Origin: Rhynchonema sp. JSB1_4
Taxonomy: Eukaryota; Nematoda; Chromadorea; Monhysterida; Xyalidae
DNA length: 64,000 bases
Direction of reading: 5' to 3'
Assembly: GCA_030248065.1 (NCBI GenBank)
Contig: JASAMV010000885.1
Location: 16,401 to 80,400 of the forward strand
A program made the translations under genes and the position numbers. Shown piece after piece: positions 1,649 through 62,700 of this stretch (its first letter is position 1; each line of letters begins with the position of its first letter). The notes under the pieces were generated by a model, which searched no databases, had not been told where the DNA came from, and saw only the letters and a list, made by a program, of their open reading frames with translations.

Positions 1649-4600
1649 ATGACGTTCTGGTTTCTAACAGTTAGCGTGCCAGCATTCGCACTGGGACTAT
1701 TCCCAGTCTATCGCATTCGACAGGCATTGAACAGTATTGACAGTGCTCGTCCGGTGAAGACGGGATTTTACAAACGGTCATACAAGGACAAACTGTATCC
1801 GTGTTTTGTGCTGATGAATGTTCTGACAATGCACACCGTGCCTGTGCTCGTCTACACCTTGCTGCCTGCTGTGCCATTGAGCACTGAATGGACCACAACG
1901 ATTGTCAATATTTTTGCAGGTTCGTTTACAATTTTTTAGATGATACATATATGCACCCTGCTATGCATTATTATTCCTGAGTTGAGCAGTGAATGATTCG
2001 AACTCTGAGAGCATTTTAGTAAGATTAACTACAGCTAACCCAATGCGCCAACGCAACGCCAACGCCATTTCAGAGTACACAGTCGTCACAATACTATGTT
2101 CGTGCATATCGCTGTGCTTCGTGTGCTATCTGGACGTGATCGACATGTGCAACTGGGACACCGGACAGCAGACACTAATCACAGCCGGCACTGCATGGAG
2201 CTGGACATTCGCCGCTGCCTGGGCCGTGCTGCTGCAGGTTGTAAACAAAACGACCAACTGATTGCGGGCATTTAATTTGACGTTCGAAGCGGTTTCTGGC
2301 TTCGATCTTTGTTAGTCATCGTTTTGAGCCTGTGTGACTTCCAAAAAGATCGCTGTGAACGGGAGTCTGAAACAGACAGACAGACATTGTCCAATAGCAA
2401 CAGAAAAATTACGTACAAAAGCACTGGGTACGATAGTTCCACTTCGAACTTTCAAAAAACTCATCAGGCGATCAGCAAATGCGATTACAACTGGGCATCG
2501 GGTCGTTTCAAGTTCACCTGCATCAACCAACCAATTCAACATTTGTACATTTGCTTGGCACTGACATTAATCTGTGCCGGCGTTCTGTACGGCATCGCTG
2601 TCAGTGGGAAACACAAACGAAATCATGTGGTTGAGCAAATTAAGGAGGAGCCCCATGCACCCGAGGAACCGCCGCCAGGTTTGTGAGAAGCTGAAAGAGC
2701 GATCTGTTGTTGGGTATAGTCCGTCCACCAGCTCATGGCACTTTGTGTTGCTGCTGGCCGGTTTTTTCCCTTCCTCCACGTTCTAATGAAAGAGAAATTG
2801 AGCGTGAGCGATTTTGCAAAAAAAACTTAAAAAATAAGAAAATGTGTCGAAAACGACTGAATTCGATCAAATTTAAAATTAAATTAAATTAAAATCGATA
2901 AAACACGTCGATTTCATAAAAACAGCAATTTAGGAGCAAAAATATTTTTTTTGGAAACTCAATTTCTCTTTCATTAGAACGTGGAGGAAGGGAACAAACC
3001 AGCCAGCAGCAACACAAAGTGCCATGAGCTGGTGGACGGACTATACACATTGCTCACACCGTAGTTTAATGAAGAAATGTTTCGTTCGGACGCATACAAG
3101 AATTCAGATGCATTGGTGTAGACTGCCTCACAGATATCGATAATTCGAAAAAGGTAAATAGAAAACACCAACACACCTTTTCTTAGCACAGGTTGTTCCG
3201 TAAGCGCGGTAGTCGAAAACGCCGATTTCCAACTGACGCCAAAAATGATTCACGAACAATTCGATGCATTCAACACGCGCCAGCTGCTGTGCAACATCAC
3301 AACCATTGTGTTCTCTTGTGTTGGACTGCTGGTCAGTTGGCACTTTTTTTAGACAGAATACAACTTTGGACAGATCGTTCAGAAAAAAATGCCACATCTG
3401 AATTTGAAACAGATCGACCAATCAATAGCTATGCCGGGTTGGTTGAAAGCCATGATTGGTTGGACACAAACACACGCGTATTTGTGGCTGACAACGGTCA
3501 CGTGCAGCGCGTATATTTCACAGGCCGAGGTTAGCATGGGTTGGGCTTTTTGTGAGTTGAAACATTTTCGTCTGTTGGGTATTTTTTTAACCCGGTAGAC
3601 AAAAAGACCCAAATGACCAAATCCACAGGTGATCATGGTGTACATGAAGTCGCATCCGTACGTCGCCCCGACTGCAATTGAGCCGGCCGATCAATTCCAA
3701 TACAACAACGGTCACGTGATGCCGGCTAATGTTTCATCGTCTCGGCCGAAATCAGGAGGTGGACACAACAGTTCGAAGCCATTGACACTGCATCCAATGG
3801 TGGAGAACTACGGTCATTTGGTGTTGGATGAAAGTTGGTGATCAGAGATTCATGGGTTGAATCTTGATTTGTGAACACGAGCCGCACTTTCAATGTTTCA
3901 TGTGCCCTATTCGCACGTCGACACACGACGGCATCGGCATTTGTGCCCGGCTACAAACCGCCGCACGCCGGTCAGCCGTATCCACCGTATTTCGTGCCCG
4001 GCAAACCACCGAAACGACCGCCCAGCTCAAAACGACTGGTCCGACGAGGCTCACTTCTATCGCAATTGAAACTGAACAATCCGGCAAGTGGTGCGCAAAA
4101 TCGCTCGCCGTCAACGGGACATCGTAAGCTCATTAGTGTTGTTCAATCTGTCTAACCCGACTGATGTTTCATCAGATGAATGTGTAGTTTCAGACACCAC
4201 TGTGCCGTCGATCGCTGTGGACGAGGCGCCACCGTCGCCGACAAGCGATGCGAATTTGGGATCGAATTCGAGTATTCAGGTTGGAATTTGGGGAATTAGG
4301 ACGTCAATCGACCTTGGAATCGATGTCGACTGGTAAATATATCATCCAAAATTGATGTTCACAGGAGCGCATCAGCACATATTTGACGCACGATTCATCG
4401 ACACGAACGTCGGTGAGCGAGGCTGATTCGGAGTTCTTCAACAATCGAAGTGTGTCGCGATTGCATCGGGTTGGTCGATTGATATGCTGACTAGCTGCGA
4501 TCACATGCTCAAAAATTGATTGATTGAATGATTTGCAGAATCAAAGCAGCGAAGACCGAGGCGATGCACACCCAGGCGGCCATCATCAACATCCACATGC

Positions 4601-5727: not shown

Positions 5728-7648
5728 ATGCTAATTTTAACAGTAACATCAATCCTAATTTTTGAGTTGCTTGCGTCATGCATGTCAATCTGCCCCACCT
5801 ACCATGGCCAGGTGCATTTCACGTACGGCGAAATTCAAGACCCGAAAGTTTGGTCCGAGAAATATCGACTTGGACCCGGGTCTGAGGAGTTTCTTAGACC
5901 ACTCGGCCAGAGAAGATTGATAAAAAGACGACCGAAATTTAACGAAAATGGAGGACAACCAGATTCCACTGGTCCGGGACTTTATTCAGAATTCGACTAT
6001 TTCTATGACCAATATCAACAGCAGGCATATGACTACGATGGGAATATTGTGAAAGAAGGTTTGAATCAATATTATGAAACATTTGAGTTGACATAAGATT
6101 GAAAGCATCCGAATTTCAGATAGTAAACTGGCACTCAGTCAGGATAATGATGATGATAATTCAACGATGGTGATCAAGCCTTCAAGTGAGCCGGGCTCAG
6201 CACCACAGCTTCAACTGCGAATCGTAGAGAAAAGATCGCATAAACGACCTGAGACTTCGAGAGAACTAACGAAAACGTCTGATCAGAACAAAACAGGTGG
6301 CAACGGGTAGCTTGGAAGATGTTTCGATTGTGTATTGTGGTGACCCAATAAGTTTCGACCGGCTTTCACAACGCATCGTATGTATGCCCATGTAACTCTG
6401 AAACAAACGATAAGTTTTCGTTGTCACTACAGTAGTCGTCGCAAATACAGGCCCATACGCCACGTGGCATCTGACCGTGCCGATGCACACCAAGACAGTG
6501 ACATTGGCAGTGTTGCGTGACGGTGATGTGCGCAGCCATTTCATCCTTAATTTCGAGTCAGGACTGTACGATGATCTGACCAGGACTGTGCACACCGAGC
6601 ACAGATACGAAAAGACAGTGGATTTGACTGAATTTGGCATCGAGAAGAATCAATGGTGAGCTGTGACTGTGAGCACACTTGGGAGGTTTTGGAGCTCGCT
6701 TAGGCTTAGACTTAGTACTGCACCCGAGGTTTGGTCCTAGGTTTAAATAAAATAAACCAGGTTTACTCACTTTTGATTGAAAGCCAATATTATTAGGATC
6801 TTGCACTTAGGGTTTCCATCCCCAAGACCTGTGCCTATACATTCAAGCCTAAACTACCATTTTGGGCGAACTCAACTAATAACCAACTTTTCATTGTTGA
6901 GTGGAGAACAACGGGCTACATCGTAAGTCGTTATCACACGTCAATCACCGCTGGTGTTTGCTGAAGTCGACAGCAATAAGATCTGCTGGCGGGTCTTTTT
7001 GGAGGCAAAATTGCCAGAGGCGTTCGCACTGACAAGCCAGGGCGACTCGGTCTGTCTGCGAAAGCAGGGTGACACAGACCAACGCTACTGCACTCCGTAC
7101 ATTAAACATTCCAACCTGAACATGGGTGTCAAGGACCAAAATCAAAACGTAATCCACTCAGGTACCACACACGTCTGGTGCTGCGTTATACGAGCCCAGT
7201 CGACGGTGGTGTCATCTACTGTATGCATGACACCCTTATTCGAACGTGCGTGCCGGATGATGTTTCACAGAACAAGTCGTGCACAACGAAACCATTGCAA
7301 ATTCAGCTGAACCATGAAGGTGGTATGAAGAATACAGCCGTGGTCAGATACCTGACATCGGATCTGCCCTTTCCCGTCGCTTATGTGCATCTCAAATTGC
7401 ATGTTAGCGCCGATTCCAACAAAAGGTGCGAAAATGCCACCGAAAATCACCCGATCCGACCAGTTATCAAGAGGAAAATCTTTCCCAACTCAATTGGAGA
7501 TGTGATTATTAAGGATTTGGACTCAGAATTGAGCTACGTCACCCAAACGGATGTGATTGGTCACATAAGGGTTGGACATGTAGAAAGTAATGTGACATTT
7601 GTGGACTATTTGCATGAAACGAAAGTTATTCTGTCCAAATGTGCATGA
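5728..7648 (+). CDS. Predicted secreted protein, unrecognised family
   Basis: Exons: 5728-~6057, ~6120-6296, ~6452-6655, ~6900-6922, ~6972-7160 and ~7199-7648. The first exon starts with a signal peptide (MLILTVTSILIFELLASCMS) followed by a Tyr-rich acidic region (FDYFYDQYQQQAYDYDGN). The body is beta-rich in character, for example TWHLTVPMHTKTVTLAVL and PVAYVHLKLHVSADSN, with paired cysteines in the last two exons (ICWRVF, VCLRKQ, RYCTPY, IYCMHD, RTCVPDD, KSCTTK, RCENA) that suggest an extracellular disulphide-bonded domain. There is no C-terminal hydrophobic tail, so it is probably soluble. The small exon 4 is the least certain. I do not recognise the domain. Confidence 0.65.
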
Positions 7649-9063: not shown

Positions 9064-11658
9064 ATGTCTACCCCGTCACGTGTGACTGTGCGTCGTGCGA
9101 TATCCCTCGATCCATCACCACATTTGCCACAAACAATGTCCAACATCAATATCGACAAAACGCCGACTCAAACGGAAGATGAAATCGGGGTACTGCCTTT
9201 GGTCCATCAACCGCCCAGAAACGCGAGGAAATTGCGCACACCCAAACTGCATCGTGCAAATGATCTGACCGCCTCCAATGCCACCACTGAATTCGGAACT
9301 TTGGTGGATTCAGAAGTTGGTTATTTGGTTCCTGTATATTTCTGAGACACTAGCCGCCATAAAACTAGGCGAATGGATCGGTGTTTTATGCCGTTGGAAA
9401 GTAGTCTCCTTAAAATAGGCAAATCTCAAAATTAGCCTTCACCTTTTAAAATAGGTACTGAAACTGGCGTGAGCAAGACTGATTGGTTGGTCAAGTGTGA
9501 TACAATATTTTGAAACCACATCACCCCTAGGTGTTGCATCGTCTGGGCATTCCATCAACCGAACGGATGTCAGACACAAACAGTGCACCACAACATGAAC
9601 AACACGATTCGGTGAGCGGATCGAGTGGATACGACTCGGGTATGCGATCATGTGTAATACATATATGCACATCACGGGCTTTCTTCGGACACGTGACCAG
9701 CGCAAAAGTTACAAAGGAACTGCTTTTTTAAACTGGTCGAAATGTGCTTCAGTATGAAGTCACGATCAGCCATCTGCCTGGCTGTACAAGTGTTCGCTTT
9801 GTGAATACGCGAGGGACAATGTTTGACCCAAGTTGTCAATCGATATATGTACTTCTTTCGAAATACAGGCGGCAGCAAGACAGTGGAGATACTTGAGATC
9901 GACCATCCTCTGAACAGCAGTGGCACGAATCTCGTCTACAAGCACATCCCGCATTATCAACGACTGTCAGGCAGCAGACATTGTGACCGATGCTGGGCAC
10001 ATGCCGCACCCATGAAGACACCAAGTACGTGCATAAAAATTAAACTGATGTTTCATGCGTCAGCTGGTGTGTTTTGTTTTTTATATGTGATTTTAGCTGA
10101 TGTTTTCTGCTTGGTGCAGTTAATTTGATTGTATGCTTCCGATTCGCGTTCATAGCATCCAATGTGGGACGTGGCAGGAATATTCATTAGGTGCAGAGTG
10201 TAACGTTGGATTTTTTAAATTATTTAGAGCCTATAACCGACTTGATAACGTGAACATAATTAACTCAGAGCACAGTTGACGATTTCGTAACTTCACACAA
10301 GGTCCTCTTGAATCTTTTCTTGATCACGCGAGATTGAGCCAATCTTGGACGTTTCAAGATGATTATGACTCTCGTATAACAACCAGAACGGCGGCTGTAC
10401 TCTTAAAACTTAACTCTAAACTTAACCAATCTCATGTTTACTTCTCAGCTCCACCCGATAAAGCAACGCCCACCAAGAAGCAGCCCAGCTCTAATCGAGC
10501 AAAAAAGCCACGTTCCGGTTCTCTGCCAACGATTATCAACGAAACAGAAGCGAAACTGAAGAAGAGCACATCCAAAGACAAACAACCACAGTCAACCATG
10601 TCTGACAGAATAAGGGGTCGATCGGGGTCAGTGAAGAAATCTGATGCTGCGAGCCGATCCAGCCAACAACCGAAAACGCCGCACAATTCGATGTTGACGT
10701 TGGGCGAATCAGAGAAAGTTAGTGCTGGTGATGTCAATTCACAACGGCAGGCAAATCACAGGTTTGACACCAGTGTGCGGTGCATATTAAAACATTGCAC
10801 TCATTCGACGATCCGCCAGATGCATCTGGAGCGCTGAGTCACACACAGAAACGCGCACACGTAATTCTTGCTGACACTAAAAATTTTAGTAAATAAATTT
10901 TTCTGACCACCGTGGCATGATCCTTGTGCAACTAACCTAGGGAAAAATTCTCGACCATCACAAACTATGAAACATCTCAGGACGACACACAAGCACCGCG
11001 CCGTCCATCGTGGGGTCGCGACACTCGGACAACGCTGCTTCGTCAACGACGACAACAACAATTAATGAGTAAATCAACCGACAATATTGCTGGTGCGACC
11101 GGGAAACGTCAGCCGCCGCAATCCAGCGGTCAAATGAAAAATGCGGTCTCCGCGCACAGAATTGCGGATCAGAATGTCAGTAATGGAAACAGCAAGAAAA
11201 ACACCACCAAAGTCAAGTAAGAGTTTTTTTTATGATGAAGTATAATCACCAGTACCTATAAGAAATTTCGCATTTTAGGCCATTCAAATTTGCCACCGAG
11301 CGCGCGGCGCAGGCACGTGAAAATGGACAGTTGAGATTGGAAGCGATGACCAGGAAGCAATTAGAAGAGAAATTGACCTTGTTGGAAACCAGACATCAGA
11401 CAGGTTACTTGATTTTCAGTAAGGATTATCCTGACGAAGTGTCTGTGCACCACTGTCCTGTCGAACAGAACCGAGCGGTTGCATTTCAGCTCTGCGCAAT
11501 TTGCGTTTCATGAAACACAAGAACACAAGCGAAAAGCGGCCAGCCAATCGAATGGATCAGAGTTGTTCACCCGTACAGGAATTGGTGCGCGTTCAACCCG
11601 TGAAGGTGCGCGCGCTCGAGAATTTTTGGCAAAGAAATGCGGGTTGATTGTATATTGA
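9064..11658 (+). CDS. Charged low-complexity protein with TPX2-like microtubule motif
   Basis: Exons: 9064-9315, ~9531-9641, ~9869-10025, ~10448-10750, ~10979-11217, ~11280-11400 and ~11492-11658. The start is CCACC-ATG-TCTACC. Most of the protein is Ser/Thr/Lys/Pro-rich and probably disordered (KATPTKKQPSSNRAKKPRSG, SDRIRGRSGSVKKS). The sixth exon encodes KPFKFATERAAQARENGQLR followed by KQLEEKLTLLE. This matches the PF.(L/F).TE.RA..R pattern plus coiled coil of the C-terminal TPX2/KLEEK microtubule-binding domain, a spindle-assembly and microtubule-nucleation module. The last exon is basic and Ser-rich. A cytoskeletal role is inferred from this one motif; everything else is unassigned. An intron acceptor near 10967 carries TGAAACATCTCAG. 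Confidence 0.6.
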
Positions 11659-12052: not shown

Positions 12053-12839
12053 ATGTCAACCAACCAAACCCCGAGTGAAACATCAACCATCATCAACACC
12101 ACCGATGTCGAATGTCCAGCACCACGGGCATCCAGACAACTTAGTGCAAACAGTGATGATGACGAAGAGACAGAGCTGAAGGCTATACAGGTTGGGCGAA
12201 ATGGGGGTCACACTACGGTTTCGCCCAAAAGTCCGGATTAATTGAACGAACTTGTAATCCAAGCAGTTCAGGTATGCTTGTACTTCTGGAAAAGAAATTT
12301 CGCTTGAGATTGAGACATGCACGCAAATGCATGAAGCACCAACCGTGATTCTGTGAGCCGTATCACGCCAAGTAATACTTCGGTTGGTCTGCAACAAAGC
12401 AGAAGCAACTGTTGCTTGAGCCAGGTTTCAGTAGAATTGTGGATGTAGTACGACGACTGATTTCGACAACCATAAGCGTGCTTTTGACGTATAATTAACG
12501 TTCGATAGATCTCCCTGCTAACCAAAACACAACATAGGGCAATATTCACTTCAGTCACCAGATGAGCCTCGCGACCTTCCCACAAGTGACGTTATCCAAA
12601 GTGTGGTGCGTGGCAGTGTGCATGACGCAATACGACACACAGCCAGCAAACAGGCTCGCCATCACCTTGCACATCGAGCTAGACACAAAGCGGGCAATAT
12701 GACATTCGCTCGGAGTCCAGACCAGGAGGACCCACTGCTCCAAGATGTGAAAAAGTTTGTGCATGCACAATTGGTGCCAGCAGCTACTGACATGGCTAAG
12801 GATCAGATCAGGAAACACGCAGCCGCTCCTGCGCTGTGA
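12053..12839 (+). CDS. Small hydrophilic protein, unknown function
   Basis: Two exons, 12053-12189 (MSTNQTPSETSTIINTTDVE..., ending at CAG|GTTGGG) and ~12540-12839 (QYSLQSPDEPRDLPTSDVIQ... to HAAAPAL stop), together about 145 residues. The first half is Ser/Thr/Asp-rich; the second is basic and His/Arg-rich (KQARHHLAHRARHKAG) and ends in a helical segment (LLQDVKKFVHAQLVPAATDM). No signal peptide or membrane segment. It may instead be the 3' end of the preceding gene if the stop at 11658 is skipped by splicing. The stop codon itself forms part of a TGAAACATCA motif. Confidence 0.5.
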
Positions 12840-13643
12840 AACATCACGTGGAACTGAATACCAAACTATTTTGTTCCTTGTCTGATAATTGATCAATTGA
12901 CTCGGTTATTTGAATTCGTGTCTCGTATTTTCTTGACCACATAACCGGCGTATCACTGCATAAAGATTGCATGTGTTATATTTATATATACTATACATAT
13001 TTTCGTGAACATCACAAAAACTACGCAAACAAAGAGAGTAAGATTGGAAGCCCGTATTTTGAATACGAATCAAGCAGTGAAACCAGGTGGTTAGCTGTGT
13101 GAACAAAGTTCAAAACTAATAATCCATTCCACGATATGGTCCAAAAAGGAGTCGATTTCTAGCAAAATAATGCAAAAATCCGTAATTAAAAATTCGACAA
13201 GCTGAGCAAAGCGTTCAAACCGAGATATGTACAAAAGTGATAAACAATGAACGTTTCTAACACAATTATGATTTCAATCCAACTAAAAGTCAATCCTTTG
13301 AGATTTCGTTGGATAATGCAGGTTGTAGCCTGACGAATGCGATGTATCACAACAATATTTAGCAGATACGTGATCATTAGATCTGACAACTTGTTTCCAG
13401 AAAAGTGATTAGCCACAAGCGTAAAATAAACGAAAATATGAATTTGAAAACAGATACCATGCTGAAGGATCAAGCCAATCAAAATGGAATGAATCTATGC
13501 AATACAATCAACGGCAATTTTAAAAATGCAAGCGAACAGCTTTAGCTGCACGCGTGTTCTGTTAATCTAGAAGGCATTTGCGAACGGTCTGAGGACTGAA
13601 CACTCATGTGGCGTTTCAAAACATAAAAAATATCAAAAGTTAA
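12840..13643. other. Convergent intergenic region
   Basis: AT-rich sequence between the 3' ends of a plus-strand and a minus-strand gene. No conserved coding stretch, RNA gene or transposon end was recognised. Confidence 0.5.
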
Positions 13644-16557
13644 TCAATCAATCGATGACCTTTCCGGATGCAGCACACTGTCGACAGCAGTGAACACGAT
13701 GTCGAATGCCTTCCGATAACCCTCCTGAGTCAGATGACAATAATCGAACATGTCGTGGTGGTCGATTGAACCGTCAGCAGCTATAATAATGGCAAACACT
13801 TATGGTGAGACTTAGAACTATACTGGCATGCGAAAAAAACCGGTTTTTTTTTCGAAGAAAAAACGAAAAAAAACCGTTTTTTTCCGAGACCCGAATACTT
13901 TTCCATTTATTTTTCCGTGGGTATCTTTTCGGTTTTTGATCGGAAAAATATCGGTACTTTATCCCAATTTTTTCAAAAAATTGTAATGCAAAACTGATGA
14001 GTGCTTCGATTTCAGTGAAAAATTGGCTCGAGCACAAAAATTAACCGGCCCAAAATGGGCCAAAAAGCGTGTAAATCAAGTGTTTTGGACTGACTTCAAC
14101 ACTCTTCAAGAGCACTCTCGTCACTTCGAACAAATTTTACACTGAAATTGTTATATTTTTCGAAATTACGTTCTTAAGTACTGGAAAAGTATTTGGGAAA
14201 AAACGGTTTTTTTCGGAAAAAACCGTTTTTTCCACGAAAAATAAAAAACGGTTCTTTATGACAGTATACTTAGAACGTAGTTGCCGCGAGCGTAAACAGG
14301 TTAGCTGACTTGCTCCCAGCCAGCATTTGATTGGAAGCATTAAACGTCGATGTTAACCACATTAACCGTGAGTAAACCACAACAATAATATCTTCAACCT
14401 GAAGTTTAAAAGCCGTGGTCAACAAACTAACCAGTAAAGCCGGGATCAATACATAACGTTCTGACAGAGGCGTCAGGGTTGCAGGGGAATGCGGCATCGA
14501 GCCTCTCATTCACTTCACTTGTGAACTCACGCCGAGGATTCGCCGAGCGACCGGTGGGAAGCAGTTTCTGCAAAACTGTTGACTTAAAATTGCTGCGGAA
14601 ATAGTGCTTGCAACCTTTGTGCTAGCGTCCGCGAGCTCAACCATTGTTTGTTACGCATCCAACTGTGAAGTTAATCTGAAATAAATTGCTGCAAAGACCT
14701 ATGCCAATCAGCCAGAGTTAGGAGGCTAGGGGAAAATGCTTCTTTTTCGACGAACACCAGTGTGGGCGACAATAAACCTCCAATTGCAAGCCAACGCACC
14801 AGAACAAACACGAATGCAGCGGGGTGTTTCTGTCGCATCACATCAACGACTTTCACCAAATCGCCCACGGTGTCATCGGCATTGTTGCTCAAATCGAACG
14901 TACCAGACGATACGACGATGATCTGACCGGAAAATTGTTGCCTTCTTAGATTTGTTTTGGCAGAAAATAAAAGTGGATATTAAACAAAACGAACAACCAA
15001 CTTTTGGTTTTATTCCGTCCAACTCTCCGTGCCTGACCCGCCAGAGCAGCCTGTCGGTGGTGTCGCAGAGAATGCCGAAACACAGACAATGTAGGGGCGC
15101 GAATAGATCGTTGTACACCTGAAGGATAACTGTTGTACGGCGGGTGAGTGGAAAGTGTAGAGGAAACAAAAATGCCGAAAAAATAAAACCGAACCTGACT
15201 TTGCTCCAAGAGGGCGACGTGTGAATCGCCGATGAACAATACGTCTGGCTCCTTGTCCACAGACTCCAGAACGAAAAGATCGTGCTGATCAAGAAAGTAA
15301 TGAAAGATGAACAAGGACATTTGTGTCACTAAATGAAGCTGAAATTACGGGCCTAACCAGTGTTGGAGGTGGGGGGTTTGGGGGGTAGCCCGCCCTCAGT
15401 ACAGTAGGTATCCTCCTCGCCTGGTACAGTAGGTATCCCCCCCGATGTTTGGCATGGTACAGTTGGTATCCCCTCCGATTTTCACCCCGGTGCAGTAGGT
15501 ATCAGTGTAGTTCATGGGGGGAGGGGAGGGGGGACCCCCCTAAGGTACACTAATTTCCCCGACCAAGGTACACTAGTACACTAATTTCCCCTCCGGGAAC
15601 ACTAATTTCCCCAATTTTTGCCTAAAATGGCCATTTTTAGGCCTAAAATGGGATTTTTAGGCCTAAAATGTGTGATTTTTGGGTCAATGTTCTCAAAAGT
15701 CGCCAAAATACCCTTTTTATGAAGAATTCTTTCCAAAAAGGGGTAAAAATAGGTCAATTTTTCTACCTCAAAAAGTGACTTTTTCCTGATTTTGGGTCTT
15801 CCCCCTTCCCCCAGGGAGGTACACTAATTTCCCCTCCGAAAAAGTAGGGAGGTACACTAATTTCCCCGCCGGACCAGGAACTACACTGGTAGGTATCCCC
15901 CGATTTTGCCCCAAAATTGCCAATTTTTAACCAAAATGGCCAAAATTAGTGTAAAATCAGTGGTTTATGTACCTGGTGCGACGGTTAGTGTGCTGGGGGA
16001 CCCCCTAGAACTGCAAATGCAATGGTCGTGTCGGACAGTGTAGTTCCCGGAGGGGAGCGGGTCCGGTACCTACTCCTTAGGGGGGGGAATCTCCCCCATC
16101 CCCCCCAGCCACTACACTGCCCTCAGGAACGTCTGCTCCCCCAATTTTTGCCTAAAATAGGCAAATTTAGGCTTAAAATAGGCATTTTTTAGGCACAAAA
16201 TGAGTGACGCTTAGGTCAATGTTGTCAAAAATCGCCAAAATACCCTTTTTATTGAGTTTTTTCCAAAAAGAGGCAAAAACGGGTCAAATTTTCGACCTCA
16301 AAAAATGACTTTTCTCCAAATTTGGGTCCTCTCCCCAGGTGGGTACGTCTGTCCCCCCTCCGAAAAAAGGGGTACCGCCTGTTCCCCCTCCGGGTCCGGA
16401 CCAGGAACTATGCTGGTGACGGGCCCACCCGGATCCGACGTGGCGTAATTTGGTCCGATTCCTCCCACCTCTCTCTGGTCTGGACTCACTTGATCACGCC
16501 ATCGATTATCGCCAAAATGAGGCGGCAAACTCGACGGCAAATCGTTGTCAGTGGACA
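13644..16557 (-). CDS. PAFAH1B2/3-like: PAF acetylhydrolase IB alpha-type SGNH hydrolase
   Basis: Six exons on the minus strand: 16557-16490, 15284-15195, 15118-15002, 14922-14800, 14567-14432 and 13780-13644, with matching phases, about 220 aa, the usual family length. Block I with the catalytic Ser is EPDVLFIGDSHVALL. The next exon, NDLFAPLHCLCFGILCDTTD then LLWRVRHGELDGIKPK, aligns with the family's LFSPLHALNFGIGGD...LWRL.NGEL..IKPK. LLPTGRSANP follows, and the C-terminal Asp/His block is DHHDMFDYCHLTQEGY. The family removes the sn-2 acetyl group of platelet-activating factor and pairs with LIS1, a dynein regulator, in the cytosol. Oddity: block III, normally VWVGTNN, reads VVSSGTFD, so the oxyanion-hole Asn is missing. 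Introns 1 and 5 contain transposons. Confidence 0.9.
13819..14268. mobile_element. TATACT-type TIR element in intron 5, 8-bp TSD
   Basis: Flanked by exact 8-bp direct repeats CTTAGAAC (13811-13818 and 14269-14276). Ends TATACTGG... and ...CAGTATA are inverted. The subterminal regions are packed with AAAAAACCGTTTTTT-type palindromes, and the centre is unique AT-rich sequence. The 8-bp duplication suggests the hAT superfamily. The same family is seen at 17512-18754. Confidence 0.8.
15358..16010. mobile_element. Family B MITE, truncated, interrupted by another insertion
   Basis: Starts CAGTGTTGGAGGTGGGGGG and carries repeated GTACAGTAGGTATCC words and the core phrase CCAAAATGGCCAAAATTAGTG shared with the copies at 26816-27230 and 32911-33341. 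It lacks the right-hand end (CTCCAACACTG). An element of another family sits inside it at 15503-15888. Lies in intron 1 of the SGNH hydrolase gene. Confidence 0.7.
15503..15888. mobile_element. Family C MITE (variant word GGTACACTAATTTCC), 8-bp TSD
   Basis: TIRs CAGTGTAGTTCATGGGGGGA and ...CCGGACCAGGAACTACACTG. Exact 8-bp duplication GTAGGTAT at 15495-15502 and 15889-15896, which splits a GTAGGTATCC word of the host element. Subterminal words GGTACACTAATTTCCCC occur several times near both ends. Confidence 0.85.
16036..16415. mobile_element. Family C MITE (variant word GTACGTCTGTTCCC), decayed
   Basis: Left end CAGTGTAGTTCCCGGAGG, right end CCGGACCAGGAACTATGCTG. Flanks GTGTCGGA and GTGACGGG match at 6 of 8 positions, so the copy is older. 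A second right end, CAGCCACTACACTG of family A, lies inside near 16109-16122, pointing to a nested partial copy. Confidence 0.65.
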
Positions 16558-20720: not shown

Positions 20721-20721
20721 A

Positions 20722-21467: not shown

Positions 21468-21559
21468 GCCAATCTGTGGGAGTGCCCTCGGGTTGGGCGG
21501 CCGGTGTCATGCGATGGAAAGAATAATTCCTTGGTTACCCCAGGTATGAGACCACGAAC

Positions 21560-22915: not shown

Positions 22916-22948
22916 GACGGCAGTATGGGTGGGCACAATACCCAATAC

Positions 22949-23820: not shown

Positions 23821-23821
23821 G

Positions 23822-37069: not shown

Positions 37070-38414
<1,345 letters not shown>

Positions 38415-47900: not shown

Positions 47901-49085
47901 ACAGGAGTCCAGGACACCATCAGTGCAAGAAAGTCACGAACTTATTCAGTCAACTATCGTTGAGAAAGGTCGGCAAAATGGGAAGCAGTCTCACAACTGC
48001 TGGGTATGTAGGTCAATGCAAGTGCATAAACTGGTTAACTTGGTGTCATGTCTATTTGGATGTGCATTTGAAAGAACAAGACCGGTAGTGCTCAAATAAA
48101 CAAATTAAAAACCAGAAAAAAACGAGCCTGAAACTTGAGCCCAATCCACAGGGGCGCATGCCCAACAGCGATCAACGTGCTGCCAATCAACCAAAATGCT
48201 CTGTTGGGATGCCAGGGTACGGTAGATGATGGTGCGCCAAGTTGTTGCCAATGTTCGGCCTTGGTACGGTTGAAATCAGACCAGCTGCTCCACGACACCT
48301 GAGGATTTGGTATATATTTTGCAGTGTTGGGTGTGCCTCCCTTTCAATGGGCATATGACAGCAAAAGTGACTGTGAACTGTTTTTCTCGTGAGATTTGTA
48401 TTTTGAGTGTACCTTGCTGGCTCTAAGCTTCAATGATCACATACTAACTCGGAAATCTGATTTCACAAACCAAAATAAAACAAACATAAGCATCAACCTG
48501 CACCTGAGCTTTATTAAAGTCGCGCTCGTAAAAGTTCCATATTCGATAGGGTGACGCCGGATAGTAGGCACCGGTGAAGTAGACCTGCATCGATAACATT
48601 TTTGAAGAGGAAAACACAAAAAAGGAAAATTTCGTGACCAACTTTTCCTTCTACGATATTGAAGGCAGCCAATCCGCCAATAGCGTCTATCATGTGCGTC
48701 AGCTTTTGTCCACTTGGATTGGACTGTTTGCCATAAGATGCAGATACTTGACCCAGGAAATAGCCAGCTGGAACAAATTGCTCTGGTCAGAAAATAGGTT
48801 CAGGTCAGAATGTCACACGCTTGAAACATCAAAGGCTGTGATCGCTCCGTCCACAAATACACAATTGAAGCCGTCCAGCTGACATGTTTCAAGCATGGTG
48901 AAAGTCAAGACAACGACAGACACGGTAGGGGTGGACTCACAGACGTAATCGGGTATCTGGCCAGTTGTGTTGCATTTGGCGCTCATAAACTTGTCTCCAT
49001 CCCAAGCCACAGGGAAGCGAAAGTCGTTTTCCTTGCCCAACACAAAGGCCGATGAAAGCAGCACAAAAACAGCTGCCGTCTGCAT
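44927..49085 (-). CDS. Predicted secreted carotenoid oxygenase (BCO/RPE65 family) with mucin-like tail
   Basis: The minus-strand gene starts at 49085 with a signal peptide (MQTAAVFVLLSSAFVLG). Successive exons read GYFLGQVSASYG...THMIDAIGGLAAFNIVEG, VYFTGAYYPASPYRIWNFYE, VSWSSWSDFNRTKAEHW, VADHYQRIWSVSLSV, SYIRSISMAGDRFLVIPMSS, VKFVTPKPLEATHHGFISHT, VIIVDVIEYPNAQKFLHNMY, NPVFVPKRDAKEDEGTLMV and GELVFLNAQDMTVIARSIAP. The order matches the seven-bladed carotenoid oxygenase fold (K.l.H..DG, kP.......HH.iNAYE, vvD, EPVFVPRP...EDDG, LLilDAk.l..IA). The family cleaves carotenoids or isomerises retinoids at a four-His iron centre. The final ligand site, normally FHG, reads LNN here, and the third reads SHTINAY, so activity is doubtful. 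A roughly 230-residue Thr/Pro-rich tail follows. Family members are normally cytosolic. Confidence 0.8.
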
Positions 49086-49917: not shown

Positions 49918-52900
49918 TTATTCCGCCTTGATTTTCTTGGCAGCCTGCCTGGCCGTCCACCATTTTTCGGTGTCAATGCACACATTTGAGTAGACATAGC
50001 CAAATGTGAGCAGGAACTTTGCCTGCCACGTAAAGGGAATCAATTGATGCACCAGCACTCGATCGACGTAGATCCAGCCGGCGCTTGATCCACCAAGGAA
50101 ATAGAAGATTGAGACCAACGCGAACACAAACGGACAGATGTGCAGCCAGCACAGCAGACGACGGAAGACTCTGCAAAGACAACAGAAGAATCATGGCCTT
50201 TAGGTGCCCCGAACCTCATCAATGAATGGTCACTGTGCCAGCCACCCACTGTGGTGCAAGTGGAAGTTTAGTCAGATAACGCAACTTCAACGACGTTGCT
50301 CGTTTCAATCTGTTTCCACAGGCGGGTGGTGCACCAAAACGCCACCAGACGGCTAAGACCATGCCATCTTGTGTATTTTGCCGAACCAACAGCTGTTGTA
50401 AAATCCTCAGAATTAGTGGATACTGTTCACATTCACGAGTGCAAAAAATCCATAGGTGCCCCGAGCGCTCATCACTGCCTGCTCCTTAGTCATCATACCT
50501 GTCCCCGATGTACGTCTCCCTCCATCGTCTGAGTGGTGTCTTTGCGTACAATTGTTTCGCGATCACTTCCTGCACCAATTCAGCGATGTTGAGCGCGATC
50601 CACACCAAATTGTTGTGTTGGAATCCGTGCCACAAAATCACGAACCCGAACACGGCGAACATCGCCAGCATACGACGCCACAGACTGCAATCGCGCATTT
50701 ATATAGTTTGCGTGAAACATCAAACAAACCCAGCCACTGTTAAAGGCAGTCAGACTGGTCAGCTTTGACCAAATGGTGCTACAAGACCGTAAACGAAGAC
50801 CAAATGCCGAATCCTAAAAACGGCAAGAAAATCAGGTGATACAACTCTAAGAGTGCCTGCCTGGCATTGCGAGTCTATAGGCTGACTGCCCTATCTGCCT
50901 GGCAAAGCTGACTGTGCGATTAGAACTGACAAGCACGTACCTGAAAGTGGGTCGACAAATGGGCAGGAAGATGTAACGTTTGAAGAACTGATATAGTCCG
51001 CGGTCGAAGGCGCGCCACATTTTCGAGTACAGGGACACGCGCGAAATGCAGGTCGGGGGCTCGTACGGCTGCATGTTGTCGAAATAGGCGAACACACTGG
51101 GCACTCCGAAGATGACGATGTATTTCAGGTGGAAATAGGCACCTGCATATGTTGATCGGGGCCTTGATGAATCTGGCAATTTGGGTATAAGATTATCAAT
51201 CACCAACCTATGGCATACCCGATTGCACAAAGCTGATCCAAGGGCACTGTTGACATGATGTACGGCACCTTGGCCATTGCGTTCATGTACATCCTGTAAT
51301 GTTTCATGCGTGCACGTAACTCAATCGGTTACAGACGGTAGGGAACAATACGATCGAATTCGAGTTCCACCTACATATAGTCAACTTGTCCACAAACACC
51401 CACCAGTAAGTCATTCTGTCACACACATAGTACCAGAATGCAGTGCGCACAGCGTACAGTACCGCGTGCTTGTGATCGAACTTTCGGGTGCGTCGTTCGG
51501 TGATTTGACGCTCCCATTCTGGGTAGGTCACAATCAGACTGATCTGGTAGGGTAGGTAGAAGCCGTACTGTAGCATTCTGCAAGAGGGATCAGGATTTAA
51601 TTGGGCTCGCACTAATGAGGCCTGGCACCTCTGCTTGACGCACTGATGAGGTCTGGGACCACCCACCTGATCAAGCACTGCCACACAGTGGTGTCCCCTT
51701 GTCGTACATTGTTGTGCACCATTTCCACCGAGTAACTGATCCAGCAGCACATGTTGTACATGCACAACAACAGAATCAGATACGGATGTGGGTGGTATTT
51801 GATGGATTGCTCCACCGATACGTACAGCAGTGGACATGCAACGATCCAGATTGCTTTCACCGAACTGAAATGAAAAAAGTTGGATAATGTTGTGTACGTA
51901 TACTCGCTGACCTCCTAAACAGAAGGCGCCTGAACCCCATGCCTAAACCCCACAGTGACCGTGTGGTTCATCTCGCCATCGGTTCCGATTTCGCCTCCCA
52001 CACATCCTCACCGTGTTTTCCACGCGGTGGCAAATATGATGAGTCCAGTCACCACCGATATCAAAGTGCTCGACCAATCGAATGCGTACACACACGCACA
52101 GAGGGAATAGACGAACATCAGGTGCATTTTGGTGGGTTCGGTGACAAAACGGTCCAGAACATTGAATAGAATCGAGTGTACTGCCATCGCTGCAAGTATA
52201 GATGGCCAGGTTTACTGGTAAATGATGTTTCAATAGAGCACTGTTTGGTCAGCAGCCAAATGAGTGACGTTGCTGCTGACCAAACAGTGCTCTACCTGTT
52301 TTAGTTTTATCTGCAGCTGCAGCGATACCTGTTGTTGGTATCTATCGTTACCTTGCTATCATGCCCATTGGTACTGGTCGTTTGCAAGCATCCAAAAAAG
52401 TATGAAACGACAACAACTTCAACCGACCAGGCACGAGTCCGAAAGCGACGATCTTCCATTCCGGCCATTCATAATCAGAATTGTCCCTGATCTGCATGCC
52501 AAAGAATGTCGTGTTCTCCAGTTTGAAACGTGGATGTTGTTGGAAGAGAATGTCGCGGAATTCATCTGAAGCCTGCAATGTGGAAAAGAAGCATTTCATG
52601 TGAGTTTGAACGTTTATGATATTTTGGGTTAGAATTGGTTAAAATCAGCTGAAACATGGCTTCTGTTCCAGCTGAAAGCATGCTCGTGTTGTTACGCCGG
52701 CTTATAGTACTGTCGTCAACTCAGATCGTCAACATTTGTCGTCAACTCCCATTGTGTGATTTCGGGAGCTCATTTAGGGCTGCTTGAGTTGACTACGAGA
52801 GTCGACCACTTGAGTTGACGACAGAAGGACATTATTAGCCGTTATGCCACTTCACAAAGGTTTTCCCAGGAACGATTGAGGGATTACTAAAATGAACCTG

Positions 52901-54551: not shown

Positions 54552-57422
54552 ATGCCCGTAGCAAAGAGCCAGGTTTGTGACGAATCTTTGAATAAAAACG
54601 AAAAAATAGATAAGGCCATAGAGGGGCCTGATCCACCATTCGAATACTCGGAGCTGCCGACATGGGAATCGAGAGTTTATCTTGTGTGCGTGGTGCTGTT
54701 TCTGGCTTACGGATGGTACTCTGTCAAAACGGTGCTCATGCTTTCTTGGAAATTATACTCTTTGTGCGAAGCGCACTGATGATAAATTCAAAGCTAAAGC
54801 TTCAATATCTTCGCCCGAATTCAGGCCTCAGACAATTATCGTGTCCTTCTTTTGGAACAGCATCCGTATTTTCATGTTGAGAGTACGGTGTTGTTTGGTG
54901 TACAAATTCGCGATGATACCGACCAGGAGTGGAGTGAATGGAAGATTATAGTGTTCGGATTGGTGCCGGGTTAGACACATTTCATGTTTAATGATCCACG
55001 GGCATGATAACAAACCAGTCATTCAGGTCAGGGTATCAAGCAACACGCAACTGATGTACCTAGAAATTATGGTTTTCTTGTCTGTTGAAAAACGGAGTGT
55101 TGCACTTCAAATGAAACAATACCTAAACAATAAATTGCAGCGATGGCAGTACACTCGATTCTATTCAATGTTCTGGACCGCTTTGTGACCGAACCCACCA
55201 AAATGCACCTGATGTTCGTCTATTCCCTCTGTGCGTGTGTGTACGCATTCGATTGGTCGAGCACTTTGATATCGGTGGTGACTGGACTCATCATATTTGC
55301 CACCGCGTGGAAAACACGGTGAGGATGTGTGGGAGGCGAAATCGGAACCGATGGCGAGATGAACCACACGGTCACTGTGGGGTTTAGGCATGGGGTTCAG
55401 GCGCCTTCTGTTTAGGAGGTCAGCGAGTATACGTACACAACATTATCCAACTTTTTTCATTTCAGTTCGGTGAAAGCAATCTGGATCGTTGCATGTCCAC
55501 TGCTGTACGTATCGGTGGAGCAATCCATCAAATACCACCCACATCCGTATCTGATTCTGTTGTTGTGCATGTACAACATGTGCTGCTGGATCAGTTACTC
55601 GGTGGAAATGGTGCACAACAATGTACGACAAGGGGACACAACTGTGTGGCAGTGCTTGATCAGGTGGGTGGTCCCAGACCTCATCAGTGCGTCAAGCAGA
55701 GGTGCCAGGCCTCATTAGTGCGAGCCCAATTAAATCCTGATCCCTCTTGCAGAATGCTACAGTACGGCTTCTACCTACCCTACCAGATCAGTCTGATTGT
55801 GACCTACCCAGAATGGGAGCGTCAAATCACCGAACGACGCACCCGAAAGTTCGATCACAAGCACGCGGTACTGTACGCTGTGCGCACTGCATTCTGGTAC
55901 TACGTGTGTGACAGAATGACTTACTGGTTGGTGTTTGCTCAAGGCGGGTGTCGATCCCACCTGCATCATGAGTTAACTGACCGATTGTACACGCAGGTTT
56001 TACATGACCTCAATAATCGGGATAGAACTTATTATGACCCAAGTGCCAAATGATCAATTCACTGCAGTGGGAATGGCTGTTGGTAGGTGAACTAGGTCTA
56101 TCACTCAAATTGCATGTTTCGTCAAGGCCACCCGATCAACATATGCAGGTGCCTATTTCCACCTGAAATACATCGTCATCTTCGGAGTGCCCAGTGTGTT
56201 CGCCTATTTCGACAACATGCAGCCGTACGAGCCTCCGACCTGCATTTCGCGCGTGTCGCTCTACTCGAAAATGTGGCGCGCCTTCGACCGCGGACTATAT
56301 CAGTTCTTCAAACGCTACATCTTCCTGCCCATTTGTCGACCCACTTTCAGGTACGTGCGTTTGTTAAACTTATTATCCCTGCTTATTATGATGCCCCGTT
56401 TTCGGAGCTGACAGTGCCTTGAACCCGCACATTGTATTTTCACAACTATGTATGGTGTGATGAATTGCTTTAGACTCCTTGTTGGTTTGAAAGTTCAGGG
56501 AAAGAGCGTAGCCACAATGAAAAACCTACTTCATGAGCATTTTTTTATCTTTTCCACAGAAAATGACTATCAAAGTGCGAGGAAGTCCGTGAACAGATAC
56601 ATACAGTAGGACCCGACCGCAGGCTTGAGTGCCAATGACCACATTGCTGGGTTTGACTGGATGATGTTTCACGCGCACTACGTAAATGCACGATTGCAGT
56701 CTGTGGCGTCGTATGCTGGCGATGTTCGCTGTGTTCGGGTTCGTGATTTTGTGGCACGGATTCCAACACAACAATTTGGTGTGGATCGCGCTCAACATCG
56801 CTGAATTGGTGCAGGAAGTGATCGCGAAACAATTGTACGCAAAGACACCACTCAGACGATGGAGGGAGACGTACATCGGGGACAGGTGGGTCAGGGCGCA
56901 ATAAGACAGGTGATGACCTTGGCACCGCACCGTGTGCTTTGACGGCAACTGGTGTTCTTTGGCCACGGTTTCGGTACGGCTCGAAATGCAGCAACGGTTT
57001 CTTTGCTCGTACAAACACCACGTGCTGTATGTATAACCTGTAGGTATCGCAGGACGCCAGGGGAACTACACACACACTTACTGTACGTTCTTCACCAGCA
57101 CCACGATTCAATTCGCACACCGACGATGTTCTGGTGCCCCTACAAGCTTCCATCCGATTCCAGAAACTTCCGTCGTCTCATCTGCGTGTTACAAATCTGT
57201 CCATTAACATTCTCGCTGGCGTCAATCTTCTATTTCCTTGGCGGATCAGGCGTCGGCTGGTTGTATATCGATCGTTGTATACTGAAACACCTGCTGCACA
57301 TGACCTGGCAATCGCAGTTTGTGCTGTGTATGGGCTACATGTACTGCAATGTGTGTGTCGATGTGGAGAAATGGTGGCAGGCAAGAAGAATGGGTGTAAA
57401 GAAAGTGATCAAAGGAGAGTAA
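54552..57422 (+). CDS. MBOAT acyltransferase, HHAT/GUP-like (copy 2)
   Basis: Exons: 54552-~54731 (...PPFEYSELPTWESRVYLVCV), 54825-54969 (LLLEQHPYFHVESTVLFGVQ), ~55143-55317, ~55467-55671, ~55751-55929, ~56000-56085 (FYMTSIIGIELIMTQVPNDQ), ~56153-56350, ~56698-56885 and ~57128-57422, ending VKKVIKGE. It has the same domain order as copy 1, with the catalytic-type His in FVILWHGFQHNNLVW. Exon 6, FYMTSIIGIELIMTQ, is clearly diverged from MYMNAMAKVPYIMSTV in copy 1, while the flanking exons are almost identical at the DNA level including introns. The first donor after exon 5 differs (GTTGGT against GTGGGT). Both copies seem intact. Confidence 0.88.
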
Positions 57423-59729: not shown

Positions 59730-62700
59730 GCAGCCTTGTACTCGCGTCTGCCCGGTCGATGTCAATCAGCGAACGAGTTTGACTGCGGTTATCCCTCGTA
59801 TGTGGTGTGCATTCCGTTGACGAAATTCAGAGATGGCACGCCCGACTGTGCCGATCACAGTGATGAATGTATGCGGGAAACATCAGCTGTTCTCTTTATT
59901 TGTATTTATTTCATGATAAAGTCGTCTTTTTGTTTCAGGGTGTTTCTATGATCAGGTTCGATGCGGCAAACAGTGTATAAGAACCATGGACTACGTTCCG
60001 TATCAGTGTATTGGGAAAGAAAGTTTGACCTCTTTGTGAACATTCGGGTCTTTAAAAATGTTTTTAACTCATCTGTTATATTTGTACTTCAGCCTGCAAA
60101 TCGAAAACAACCAAGAACAAGCCGAAATTCTGCGATCTTTCAAGTGAGCAACATATTTCCAAATTACCTTGTTTTCAAAGTTTAAGTTTTTCATTTTTTA
60201 AACAGAAAACTGTTTTCAGAAGAAAAGCTCTGTTCTTTCCAAACCACCGAGGTAGTGCCGTGTCGTGGTTATGGCGAGTGCATATTGCGGTCATGGCTTT
60301 TGGATGGGAAAGCCGATTGTCTTGATCAAAGCGATGAAGGTTGAAAAACCGACAAAAATGTATTTTAGATTTTGATGAATAAAAAAGCAGCGCACAATAA
60401 TTTCAGACCCGAACTACGCGCTGTATTTCAAACAACGTCCAGCCCCGGGCACAAATGGTGGGTTGCTGCCGTGGTACGGTGGCGGTGACCCGCGCTACCC
60501 TTTCAGTGTCAGGCCGCAACCGCTTGCTTCGACCACTGCTGCTAGCACAGTCACGCTTGCAACATCTACCGCTTCTAGCACAGAGGCTTTCGTGGTCACT
60601 GATCCTGGAACGACCATACCGCCGTGGTTGCGAAGTGACCCAACAACTGTGCGACCCACTACTCCAAAGCGACCAACCACGACCACTTTTCTCATCACAC
60701 GACCAGCGGTTGTTATCGTGCCGACGGTGACGGTGGACCCCAATCGTTTCCAGACGTTGCCTCAACGAACTACCGTACCCCCGGTGTCCTTTCGAACACT
60801 GGCGACACTTAGACCGCGCAATCCGCCCACAACTCCCAGTCCAAGAACGTTCTTTCCTGAAACGTCAAGGGCGACCACCCGACGAACGACGGCGTATTGG
60901 CCGTTCCGGACCACGACAAGGACAAAACCCAAATCCAGTCCTTCTGCTTCCACCGCTTCTAGCACGCTTATTAGCACTAGTAATAGTGGGCTAACTGATG
61001 TTTCAAGCGGTAAACAAACGCAACAACCTACTACTTCGACGAAACGGGTTGACGGAACGACGGCAAATACGGGCACTAGACCACATACCAGTGAAACATC
61101 ACCCACTGGTAGCACATCGACCTCGGGCTCGAGGGTCACGATCAGTTCCAGTACCAAACACTCGAACACTCATCCAATCACACAAAGATCCACTGAAACA
61201 ACAGAGTCGCGAACACAAACTGCCGACAGTACAGATTCCGGGACTAAATCCACCACAGTTGATGTTTCAACCACACGTAATCTATTCCCGTGGCTGAATC
61301 CAGCCACACCGAGTAAGTCTACTGCCACTGAAACAACGACAAGGAAAACTGGTGATCCAATCACTCAAATAAGCACTGTGGAAACTGCTTCCAGTGGTGA
61401 GCATGTGTGCAGCCTGCTGCGTGTGACCCTTTATGCTTTATGTTGTGTGGTGCAATTTGCTTTGGTTTACGCTTTGCATGTGCTTCTGGCTAAGCAACCA
61501 AAGGTATTGATATAATTCTAATATTTTGAGTTTCAATTATCAACAAGAATCGAACAACTTTCTTTCAGTGTCCCGTTTCTCCAAGTATTTCACAACCACA
61601 TCGACAACCACAACAACACGAAATCCAAACAGTGGCATTGGCGCGGTGACAACTGAGAAGCCAGTACTGACCACACAAGACAATTCGAACATCAATCCAA
61701 ATTTGTTGTCGAGGGAAGAAAGTAAGTGTTTCATTTATTTATGTTGTAGTATATGTCATTTATGTTGTAGTATATACTTATTTTGCAAATAAGGTTACCC
61801 TGAAAACTCAGGGAGACGTCTGTGTCAATCCGAGGCGCTGCGACTCGCGAAAAGTCGAACGGAGAGCACAGCGATTTGCAAATGCGACGACGGACAAATG
61901 CTGTCGGGCAGCATATGCAAAGGTGAGTCGATATCTGCATATTTAAATTTGGTTTACTCATTGTAAACCGTTTCTGTGTAAATTTTGAAACATCAACCAT
62001 AGACGCGCGTGTTGCCGAAGTTCGCCTGCGAGGTCTAGAATTGTGCCAAGAAGTCATGGAATTCGACCCCGATGTTCTGGAAGATCCGGAGAGTCAAGGG
62101 TTCAAAAATTATGCCATGTTGTTTGCCACAGCTGTGAGTTCTTGAAAGTTTTAACCGATTGTGACTGTGACCAGAGCTGTAGACTTGGTGCTCGGATCGT
62201 ACTTGCCTTGGTTATGTGACGTTACCGTTTTCAAATTTCTATCTTGACCAATTTGTAGCCAATTTTGACCAACGTAACTTGTTTTGACCAGCTTAGCTTG
62301 TTCCCAGGCCCAACCCTGTAGGCCATACTTTTGTGCTATACCCGCAAGTCTTAAATTACTAGACGGACAAGGCAACTTATCGGATCGTTGATACCACCGG
62401 CAATTACGTATAAATTCAAATTTTTCCCAGCACACTGTCATTGAAACATCACCGCTTCCAGCTGCTCGGTCTGTTGCAAAAGGCACGTCTGGGTGACATC
62501 ATGTCGAAAGTGTGTATCAAACCAACAGCGATGTCGGATGGCAGTGTCATATTCACGGTGGTCATACAATGCGACATTGAGGCACAGTGCACACGCACAG
62601 CGTTGACACAAGCGCTCTACCTGCAGCTCAATGACGCGCCTGTGCATTTGGATCCCGATTTTGTGCAAGGTGAGCGCTTTAGACGTACGCGAATTTGACT

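Follow-up and report, generated by a model that had tools for sequence, protein, structure and literature searches.

A ten-base word matching the snRNA promoter core is scattered over both strands of gene-rich DNA in a nematode genome

The 10-mer TGATGTTTCA is distributed over gene-rich DNA on both strands of a 204-Mb nematode genome, in which it occurs 37,556 times (18,829 copies on the + strand and 18,727 on the - strand), as compared with 345 occurrences of the reversed word that served as a control (172 and 173, respectively), representing an enrichment of approximately 109-fold. The word coincides with the core of the snRNA promoters of the same genome, and on sequence grounds it is very probably a PSE, the recognition site of SNAPc at these promoters. 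In the best explanation of the data, the approximately 37,500 copies are the cores of isolated PSEs, to which SNAPc, or a SNAPc-derived complex like that of the C. elegans piRNA system, would bind; the docked complexes would recruit RNA polymerase II and, as their most likely output, generate short non-coding transcripts within genes, on either strand, in a Ruby-like system in which the start site or the 5' base is variable. This explanation as a whole is proposed tentatively, at somewhat less than an even chance, and transcription as the task of the scattered sites is about half as probable as their identity as PSEs. As judged from titles and the starts of abstracts, neither TGATGTTTCA nor its complement was found as a reported motif among the papers listed.

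The window, i.e., the whole 64,000-nucleotide stretch that was analysed, contains 20 exact copies of TGATGTTTCA, 9 on the + strand and 11 on the - strand, whereas dinucleotide shuffles of the window yielded a mean of 0.32 and a maximum of 2. An initial annotation, made by eye, had placed all 20 copies exactly, the excess that it described holds genome-wide, and the nematode origin that it presumed is supported by the relatives of a window gene, which are nematode. The sites of TGATGTTTCA and the stretch that is free of them are as follows.

4162..4171, + strand: site, exact match
7258..7267, + strand: site, exact match, within a 180-aa open frame in Asp-Val-Ser phase
10046..10055, + strand: site, exact match
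12076..12085, - strand: site, exact match
12837..12846, - strand: site, exact match
12847..42260, no strand: stretch free of TGATGTTTCA, mostly dense tandem repeats
42261..42270, - strand: site, exact match
43966..43975, + strand: site, exact match
44269..44278, - strand: site, exact match
46350..46359, + strand: site, exact match
46865..46874, - strand: site, exact match
47668..47677, - strand: site, exact match
48822..48831, - strand: site, exact match
50713..50722, - strand: site in an intron (by eye) of an HHAT/rasp-like MBOAT gene, sense to the gene, also found in a diverged duplicate at 56662
52223..52232, + strand: site in a different intron (by eye) of the HHAT/rasp-like MBOAT gene, antisense to the gene
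56662..56671, + strand: site in the inverted duplicate of the HHAT/rasp-like MBOAT gene
60996..61005, + strand: site in a 378-aa Thr-rich open frame, reading Thr-Asp-Val-Ser
61092..61101, - strand: site antisense within the 378-aa Thr-rich open frame, Glu-Thr-Ser
61260..61269, + strand: site in the 378-aa Thr-rich open frame, reading Val-Asp-Val-Ser
61986..61995, - strand: site unchanged in a copy on contig C63 (97% identity locally)
62442..62451, - strand: site unchanged in the copy on contig C63 (97% identity locally)

Outside 13.5-42 kb, TGATGTTTCA is the most frequent 10-mer of the window, and its reported absence between 13 and 42 kb was confirmed, with no copy between 12,847 and 42,260, as compared with 5.4 expected at the genome-wide density (P=0.004, for a stretch chosen post hoc). 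The word is likewise absent from the repeat block of the window. The additional 8-mers ATGTTTCA and TGAAACAT, estimated previously at 20-25, number 25 outside the 10-mers, including 11 inside 13-42 kb, and the seven positions given for them were correct within 2 bases. Both sites that could be compared with the second copy on contig C63 are identical there, which at 97% local identity is no proof of conservation. An Rfam scan of the window gave no match above the gathering score, and a tRNA search of the window gave none. Among 38 of the 193 stop-to-stop frames of at least 90 aa, the only Pfam matches above the curated cut-off were MBOAT, LDLa, and a LITAF-like zinc ribbon, with EGF types, LDLRAD1_C, and a ferredoxin transit model below it.

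Genome-wide, 92,371 words differ from TGATGTTTCA by at most one mismatch (15,893 for the reversed-word control), 54,815 of them by exactly one (15,548 for the control), and the extended 13-mer GGTGATGTTTCAC was encountered 1,838 times, as compared with 4 times for its control. The consensus of the scattered sites extends to G-C-Y-n-G-S-TGATGTTTCA-C. A preferred variant of the word is TAATGTTTCA. Site density in stretches taken around known sites is a biased estimate. Filtering of near-duplicates reduced the site sets employed here from 116 to 111, from 163 to 145, and from 173 to 153, and the sets of 145 and 153 hold 39 and 47 sites of the extended 13-mer, most of which had been selected for that property.

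The excess of one-mismatch words is consistent with a self-spreading or relic sequence, for instance the termini of tiny mobile elements, or a motif that recombination and gene conversion favour, as are inverted pairs of the 13-mer with a spacing of 359 bp, which recurred (twice in contig C9, and in C136, C184, and C274, among 100 of the 1,838 places listed), so that at least one repeat family carries the 13-mer. However, four single-base variants make up the bulk of the excess in 316 kb (42 seen versus 6.0 expected, with the remaining 26 variants pooled at 52 versus 40), implying that decayed copies have not accumulated evenly, which counts against such an origin. Moreover, 145 of the 163 site contexts survived removal of near-duplicates, and the orientation of neighbouring sites is mixed (46 of 99 pairs the same, 53 opposite). 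Inverted pairs with shared inner sequence, as in transposon terminal repeats, were not found at most copies, and a self-spreading or relic sequence is quite improbable as the explanation of the sites.

Analysis of open reading frames, which served as a proxy for exons, revealed a codon-phase bias: in frames of at least 120 aa, 25 sites are in the phase that encodes Asp-Val-Ser or Glu-Thr-Ser and 5 in the other phase, as compared with 11.6 and 10.9 in a transplant null. In frames of at least 150 aa the control words TGANNNNTCA (59 words, each counted on both strands) displayed the same bias (14:4 versus 13:2 for the motif, Fisher p=0.66), whereas the motif differed from these controls in frames of at least 100 and at least 120 aa (p=0.02 each). 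The bias in long open frames suggests that some sites are located in exons, on both strands, and protein-coding exons are probably among the locations of TGATGTTTCA. The initial annotation had assigned sites to introns as well as exons; two sites are intronic by eye. The phase preference could also be taken to indicate that the word arises from chance, composition, or the coding of Asp-Val-Ser and Glu-Thr-Ser peptides, but the genome-wide enrichment over the reversed word refutes this explanation, sense and antisense copies do not differ, and 46 of 76 sites fall outside any 120-aa open frame, leaving it practically no credence.

The relation to snRNA promoters was assessed in 30 loci, comprising 10 U1 (all matches used, one of which was below the cut-off), 8 U2 (1 of 9 matches left out as below the cut-off), 4 U6 (5 of 9 left out as partial or below the cut-off), and 8 U5 loci. 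In 28 of the 30 loci a match of at least 7 of 10 bases to TGATGTTTCA was present at a near-fixed place, -44 to -48, or -56 in U6, including exact copies in two U1 loci; the motif is missing in 2 U1 loci that share one upstream sequence. Among 20 distinct snRNA promoters the most frequent base equals that of TGATGTTTCA in all ten columns, in an alignment at the best match that is biased towards the motif. With a weight matrix of the scattered sites, 7 of 10 U1 promoters exceeded 500 shuffles (p<=0.004), all at -44 or -45, and the other 3 failed (p 0.23-0.84). The U2 promoters were mostly weak singly (2 of 8 above p 0.19, 5 at p 0.014-0.054, and 1 under 0.002), and all 4 U6 promoters were singly weak or not significant (p 0.10-0.17).

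Preferences for -6G, -4T, -2G, and +10C are common to the snRNA promoters and the scattered sites, -1 is C in the former and C or G in the latter, and -5 is preferentially T in snRNA genes and C in the scattered sites; 4-5 flank columns agree. The flanks are correlated with r=0.59 over -6 to -1 and +10, and with r=0.39 over the wider -12 to -1 and +10 to +12 (column-shuffle p=0.04). In insects, the PSEA/PSEB layout consists of a PSE and a second element, with a TATA-like stretch in U6. The local U1, U2, and U5 loci have a like layout, with the core at -44 to -48 and a second element, GAWWGAC, that starts approximately 30 bp before the gene, and U6 contains a TATA-like stretch, whereas the scattered sites consist of the first element only: none of 145 scattered sites has GAWWGAC at +13 to +19, and TATAWA starting at +17 or +19 gave 3 matches among the 145. 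On basis of the core match, the partly agreeing flanks, and the missing second element, the scattered copies look like isolated PSE or SNAPc-type sites. Lacking that element, they seem to be maintained at the full consensus, which is probably the strongest site; this would account for the low enrichment of other PSE variants that snRNA genes use (TTATGTTTCA, 2,024 versus 1,728 for the control; TGATGTTACA, 1,549 versus 477). Substitution to T at letter 2 and to A at letter 8 is tolerated by U1 and U5 promoters and hardly by the scattered sites, so the protein that reads the latter may not be SNAPc itself.

Being the core of a snRNA promoter element in its own genome, TGATGTTTCA is akin to the Ruby-motif family, and the initial annotation had read the sites as piRNA promoters. 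According to PMC6436959, nematode piRNA transcription is thought to stem from snRNA promoters, the Ruby motif is derived from the SNAPc motif, and piRNA loci are dispersed in active genes; such loci number in the thousands in other nematodes, with 25,883 in C. briggsae (PMC9683057). Together with the nematode host, these data favour classical 21U promoters, in which each site would give rise to a short Pol II transcript, whose trimming would leave a 5'-U RNA at a set distance. Across 153 sites, however, no peak of T (5'-U) was found at any fixed distance: the top count at offsets 25-99 was 54, at chance level (chance maximum 55.6), and the fraction of sites with a common offset at 35-60 is bounded at 0.20, which leaves room for a smaller subset. 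Nor did YRNT peak clearly at any set distance in the same sites; its highest counts of 21 and 20, at offsets 21 and 38 (mean 11.5, sd 3.1, 90 offsets), are the only hints. An excess of T49 and G50 in 39 extended-motif sites was not repeated in 8 new ones (T 0/8, G 2/8). Downstream of the sites neither T nor TATA nor composition gave a signal, and YRNT none that was clear, so the sequence gives no sign of a transcription start there.

The Ruby motif of type I piRNA loci in C. elegans and other clade V species, with the core CTGTTTCA, has TGTTTCA and dispersal in thousands in common with TGATGTTTCA, which differs in carrying TGA ahead of TGTTTCA. A GTTTC-containing motif, a feature of Ruby-motif piRNA loci, is present in TGATGTTTCA, whereas their T at approximately 42 nt with a YRNT initiator was not found in the 153 sites, nor an A/T-rich bump around 111 sites. 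Pristionchus-type piRNA loci are similarly spread through genes with about equal orientations, but 97% of the intragenic loci of P. pacificus are intronic (PMC6436959), unlike TGATGTTTCA, for which the codon-phase signal suggests that copies reside in exons, on both strands, besides those in introns. The bipartite piRNA motif of Plectus sambesii and P. murrayi resembles TGATGTTTCA in that, according to PMC6436959, it is near-identical to their own SNAPc motif and holds GTTTC. Its two parts almost always occur together, at approximately 3,000 sites in P. murrayi, whereas the far more numerous scattered TGATGTTTCA shows neither a strong upstream part nor the local downstream element of snRNA genes. 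The kinship with the Ruby family proposed initially is therefore upheld by the snRNA-promoter core, but the sequence test argues against 21U promoters for most sites, which are an unlikely reading; the alternative named at the time, another DNA-level signal, fits better.

A non-transcriptional mark would be such a signal, in which a SNAPc-like, Myb-type, or unrelated protein binds TGATGTTTCA as an architectural, insulating, or gene-licensing site that yields no transcript. Extra TFIIIC sites and germline-licensing DNA offer comparisons. The restriction of the signal to approximately 17 bp in surroundings without fixed features, the equal use of strands, the probable presence in exons, the mixed orientation of neighbours, and the absence from the repeat block all agree with such a mark, but it leaves the identity with the snRNA promoter consensus unexplained unless the reader is SNAPc-derived; it is a serious possibility, if on balance doubtful.

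In a broader reading, which is conceivable but falls short of being probable, an snRNA promoter element may have turned into a genome-wide DNA code. Its isolated SNAPc-type sites of full consensus, in the tens of thousands, would be kept in genes, coding exons included, on both strands and free of the 21U rule, and would serve either a novel class of short transcripts or a role of SNAPc in chromatin that involves no transcription. If true, an snRNA consensus that has spread 37,500-fold without a 21U footprint, probably into exons as well, would represent a missing or parallel form of the step from snRNA promoters to piRNA, and would suggest that SNAPc-type sites can form a genome-wide layer.

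All 20 copies of the 10-mer TGATGTTTCA reported for the window by the initial annotation lie exactly where it had placed them, against a dinucleotide-shuffle mean of 0.32, and with the repeat block removed this word is the most frequent 10-mer of the window. In the assembly (203.9 Mb, 5,747 contigs) it occurs 37,556 times (18,829 forward, 18,727 reverse), versus 345 occurrences of the word read backwards, which bears out genome-wide the over-representation first noticed in the window. Allowing at most one mismatch raised the counts to 92,371 versus 15,893 for the reversed control; the one-mismatch words are themselves in excess (54,815 versus 15,548), with a mean per variant of 1,827, compared to 37,556 for the exact word. 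A sample of 316 kb of fetched DNA, comprising the window and loci selected in part around sites, contained 94 exact copies (2.1 expected). Prominent among the 30 single-base variants in this sample were TAATGTTTCA (15), TGATGTTTGA (11), TGATGTTGCA (9), and AGATGTTTCA (7), and the remaining 26 totaled 52, with 40 expected. Around 111 non-redundant sites, neighbor preferences were G(-6), C(-5), Y(-4), G(-2), S(-1), and C(+10), and apart from these, none of the columns between -100 and +129 exceeded a |z| of 3.3. The extended 13-mer GGTGATGTTTCAC was found 1,838 times genome-wide versus 4. Removal of near-duplicates left 145 of 163 site contexts, and wider sequence is therefore not common to most copies.

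Genes for U6, U2, U1, and U5 were located using Rfam models, and upstream DNA was inspected for 30 snRNA loci (10 U1, 8 U2, 4 U6, and 8 U5). The best 10-mer match within -60 to -41 agreed in at least 7 of 10 letters in 28 loci, at positions -44 to -48 (U1, U2, U5) or -56 (U6); the sole exceptions, lacking the motif, were the U1 loci L070 and L074, which have identical upstream DNA.

Forms of the probable promoter element (PSE, the site recognized by SNAPc) upstream of snRNA genes
U1: TTATGTTTCA at 5 loci, TGATGTTTCA at 2, CGATGTTTTT at 1
U5: TGATGTTACA at 5 loci; 3 further forms at 1 locus each
U2: TGATGTGACA at 4 loci; 4 further forms at 1 locus each
U6: TGATGCTACA at 4 loci

Among 20 distinct snRNA promoters the commonest base was that of TGATGTTTCA in 10 of 10 columns, in an alignment at the best match that is biased towards TGATGTTTCA, though the position is near-constant. 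A weight matrix derived from the scattered sites, i.e., exact copies outside snRNA promoters, placed 7 of the 10 U1 promoters clearly above shuffles (p ≤ 0.004); taken singly, U6 promoters scored weakly (p 0.10-0.17), as did most U2 promoters (p 0.014-0.21; one U2 < 0.002). Most U1, U2, and U5 loci (L067-L076, L125-L132, L038-L045) carry a second, GAATGAC- or GATAGAC-like block that begins 15 bases past the motif start, approximately 30 bp ahead of the gene, often with TACCC after it, and U6 loci have a TATA-like stretch in its place. At the corresponding position (+13 to +19), GAWWGAC was present in none of 145 scattered sites. Flanks of scattered and snRNA sites shared the preference at -6, -4, -2, and +10, partially at -1, and differed at -5; correlating seven columns gave r = 0.59, and with fifteen columns r was 0.39 (column-shuffle p = 0.04). 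The 10-mer is a sharp, hugely repeated DNA word that is the same, by commonest base, as the local snRNA promoter consensus and stands apart from the second promoter element; judged from sequence, the scattered copies resemble the leading half of an snRNA promoter in its consensus form. The snRNA-used variants TTATGTTTCA (2,024 versus 1,728) and TGATGTTACA (1,549 versus 477) are both little enriched genome-wide, for which either the full consensus would be required at a lone site, or the reader would be a SNAPc relative with a narrower taste.

The word had been likened to the piRNA upstream (Ruby) motif, and its copies had been proposed to be autonomous piRNA promoters or another DNA-level signal. 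According to PMC6436959, transcription in Ruby-motif nematodes begins two bases ahead of the 5'-U RNA at a YRNT initiator, and the motif is expected to lie 42 nt away. Among 153 non-redundant sites, no T peak was detected at a fixed offset from 25 to 99 (maximum 54; mean chance maximum 55.6), and the share of sites with one common offset from 35 to 60 had a one-sided 95% upper bound of 0.20; most sites are therefore not fixed-distance 21U promoters. For the same sites, YRNT counts per offset averaged 11.5 (sd 3.1 over 90 offsets), the highest being 21 (offset 21) and 20 (offset 38), and were unremarkable at offsets 46-50, the U position predicted from snRNA spacing. A T49/G50 hint from 39 extended sites did not recur in 8 new sites. 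Likeness to the Ruby motif holds for origin and number, whereas the fixed-distance 5'-U footprint, the sole sequence-testable defining piRNA feature, is missing; a smaller 21U subset may exist, or start sites may be dispersed across many bases.

Open frames were analyzed for 76 sites clear of ends, drawn from 20 loci and two parts of the window, together 22 stretches. The median longest open frame was 106.5 aa, versus 92 aa for the control words TGANNNNTCA (p = 0.011). Exonic copies had been said to encode Asp-Val-Ser or Glu-Thr-Ser, and in frames of at least 120 aa this phase held 25 sites versus 5 in the other open phase (18 sense, 12 antisense copies), where 40 rounds of random transplantation of the word predicted 11.6 (sd 3.5, maximum 18) and 10.9, respectively. 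In frames of at least 150 aa the bias was 13:2 for the motif and 14:4 for control words, and it therefore marks the frames as coding more than the motif as special. Site density was 0.386 per kb within frames of at least 150 aa and 0.388 outside. Some sites are probably located within real exons, on either strand, and the signal probably acts at the DNA level.

The HHAT/rasp-like MBOAT gene of the window (sites at 50713 and 52223) has, as judged by eye, two intron sites, one sense and one antisense. Its protein, assembled by eye from the exons, retrieved 17 relatives, 13 of them with an organism name (34-61% identity); all 13 belong to genera that we take to be nematode, including Romanomermis, Syphacia, and several strongylids, which makes a nematode source very probable, and no close relative of the source organism was among the matches. 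The gene is part of an inverted duplication (50497-52195 and 55135-56887) with blocks of 803 bp (99.4% identity), 256 bp (95.7%), and 242 bp (95.0%), and motif copies 50713 and 56662 each lie just within the edge of a homologous block.

The gap in the distribution of the 10-mer claimed between 13 and 42 kb is real, as none is present at 12.8-42.3 kb (5.4 expected at genome density). The repeat block at 13000-42000 contains tandem arrays of the CCCAATACCAATACC type, long C/G runs, and the words GGTACCTTGCAACC and CCTACTGTACC at approximately 20 copies each. A 79-bp tandem pair (40278-40426) has an apparent inverted counterpart 0.9 kb away (41286-41433). Dispersed self-complementary repeats of approximately 250 bp are found at 7700-7953 and 63175-63421, the latter with relatives at 82-90% identity on at least 36 other contigs. 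On four other contigs (C9, C136, C184, C274), GTGAAACATCACC ... GGTGATGTTTCAC inverted pairs have a constant spacing of 359 bp, marking a repeat family that bears the motif at both sides. Segment 59810-61922 has a copy on another contig (C63:13296-15443; 91-97% identity), haplotype or paralogue, without approximately 2.1 kb that include a Thr-rich frame holding three motif copies.

The 10-mer sites probably extend beyond non-coding DNA. SNAPc or a complex derived from it would be their putative binder; a chromatin mark is a close rival as their putative output, and our best guess is that they would give rise to short transcripts.
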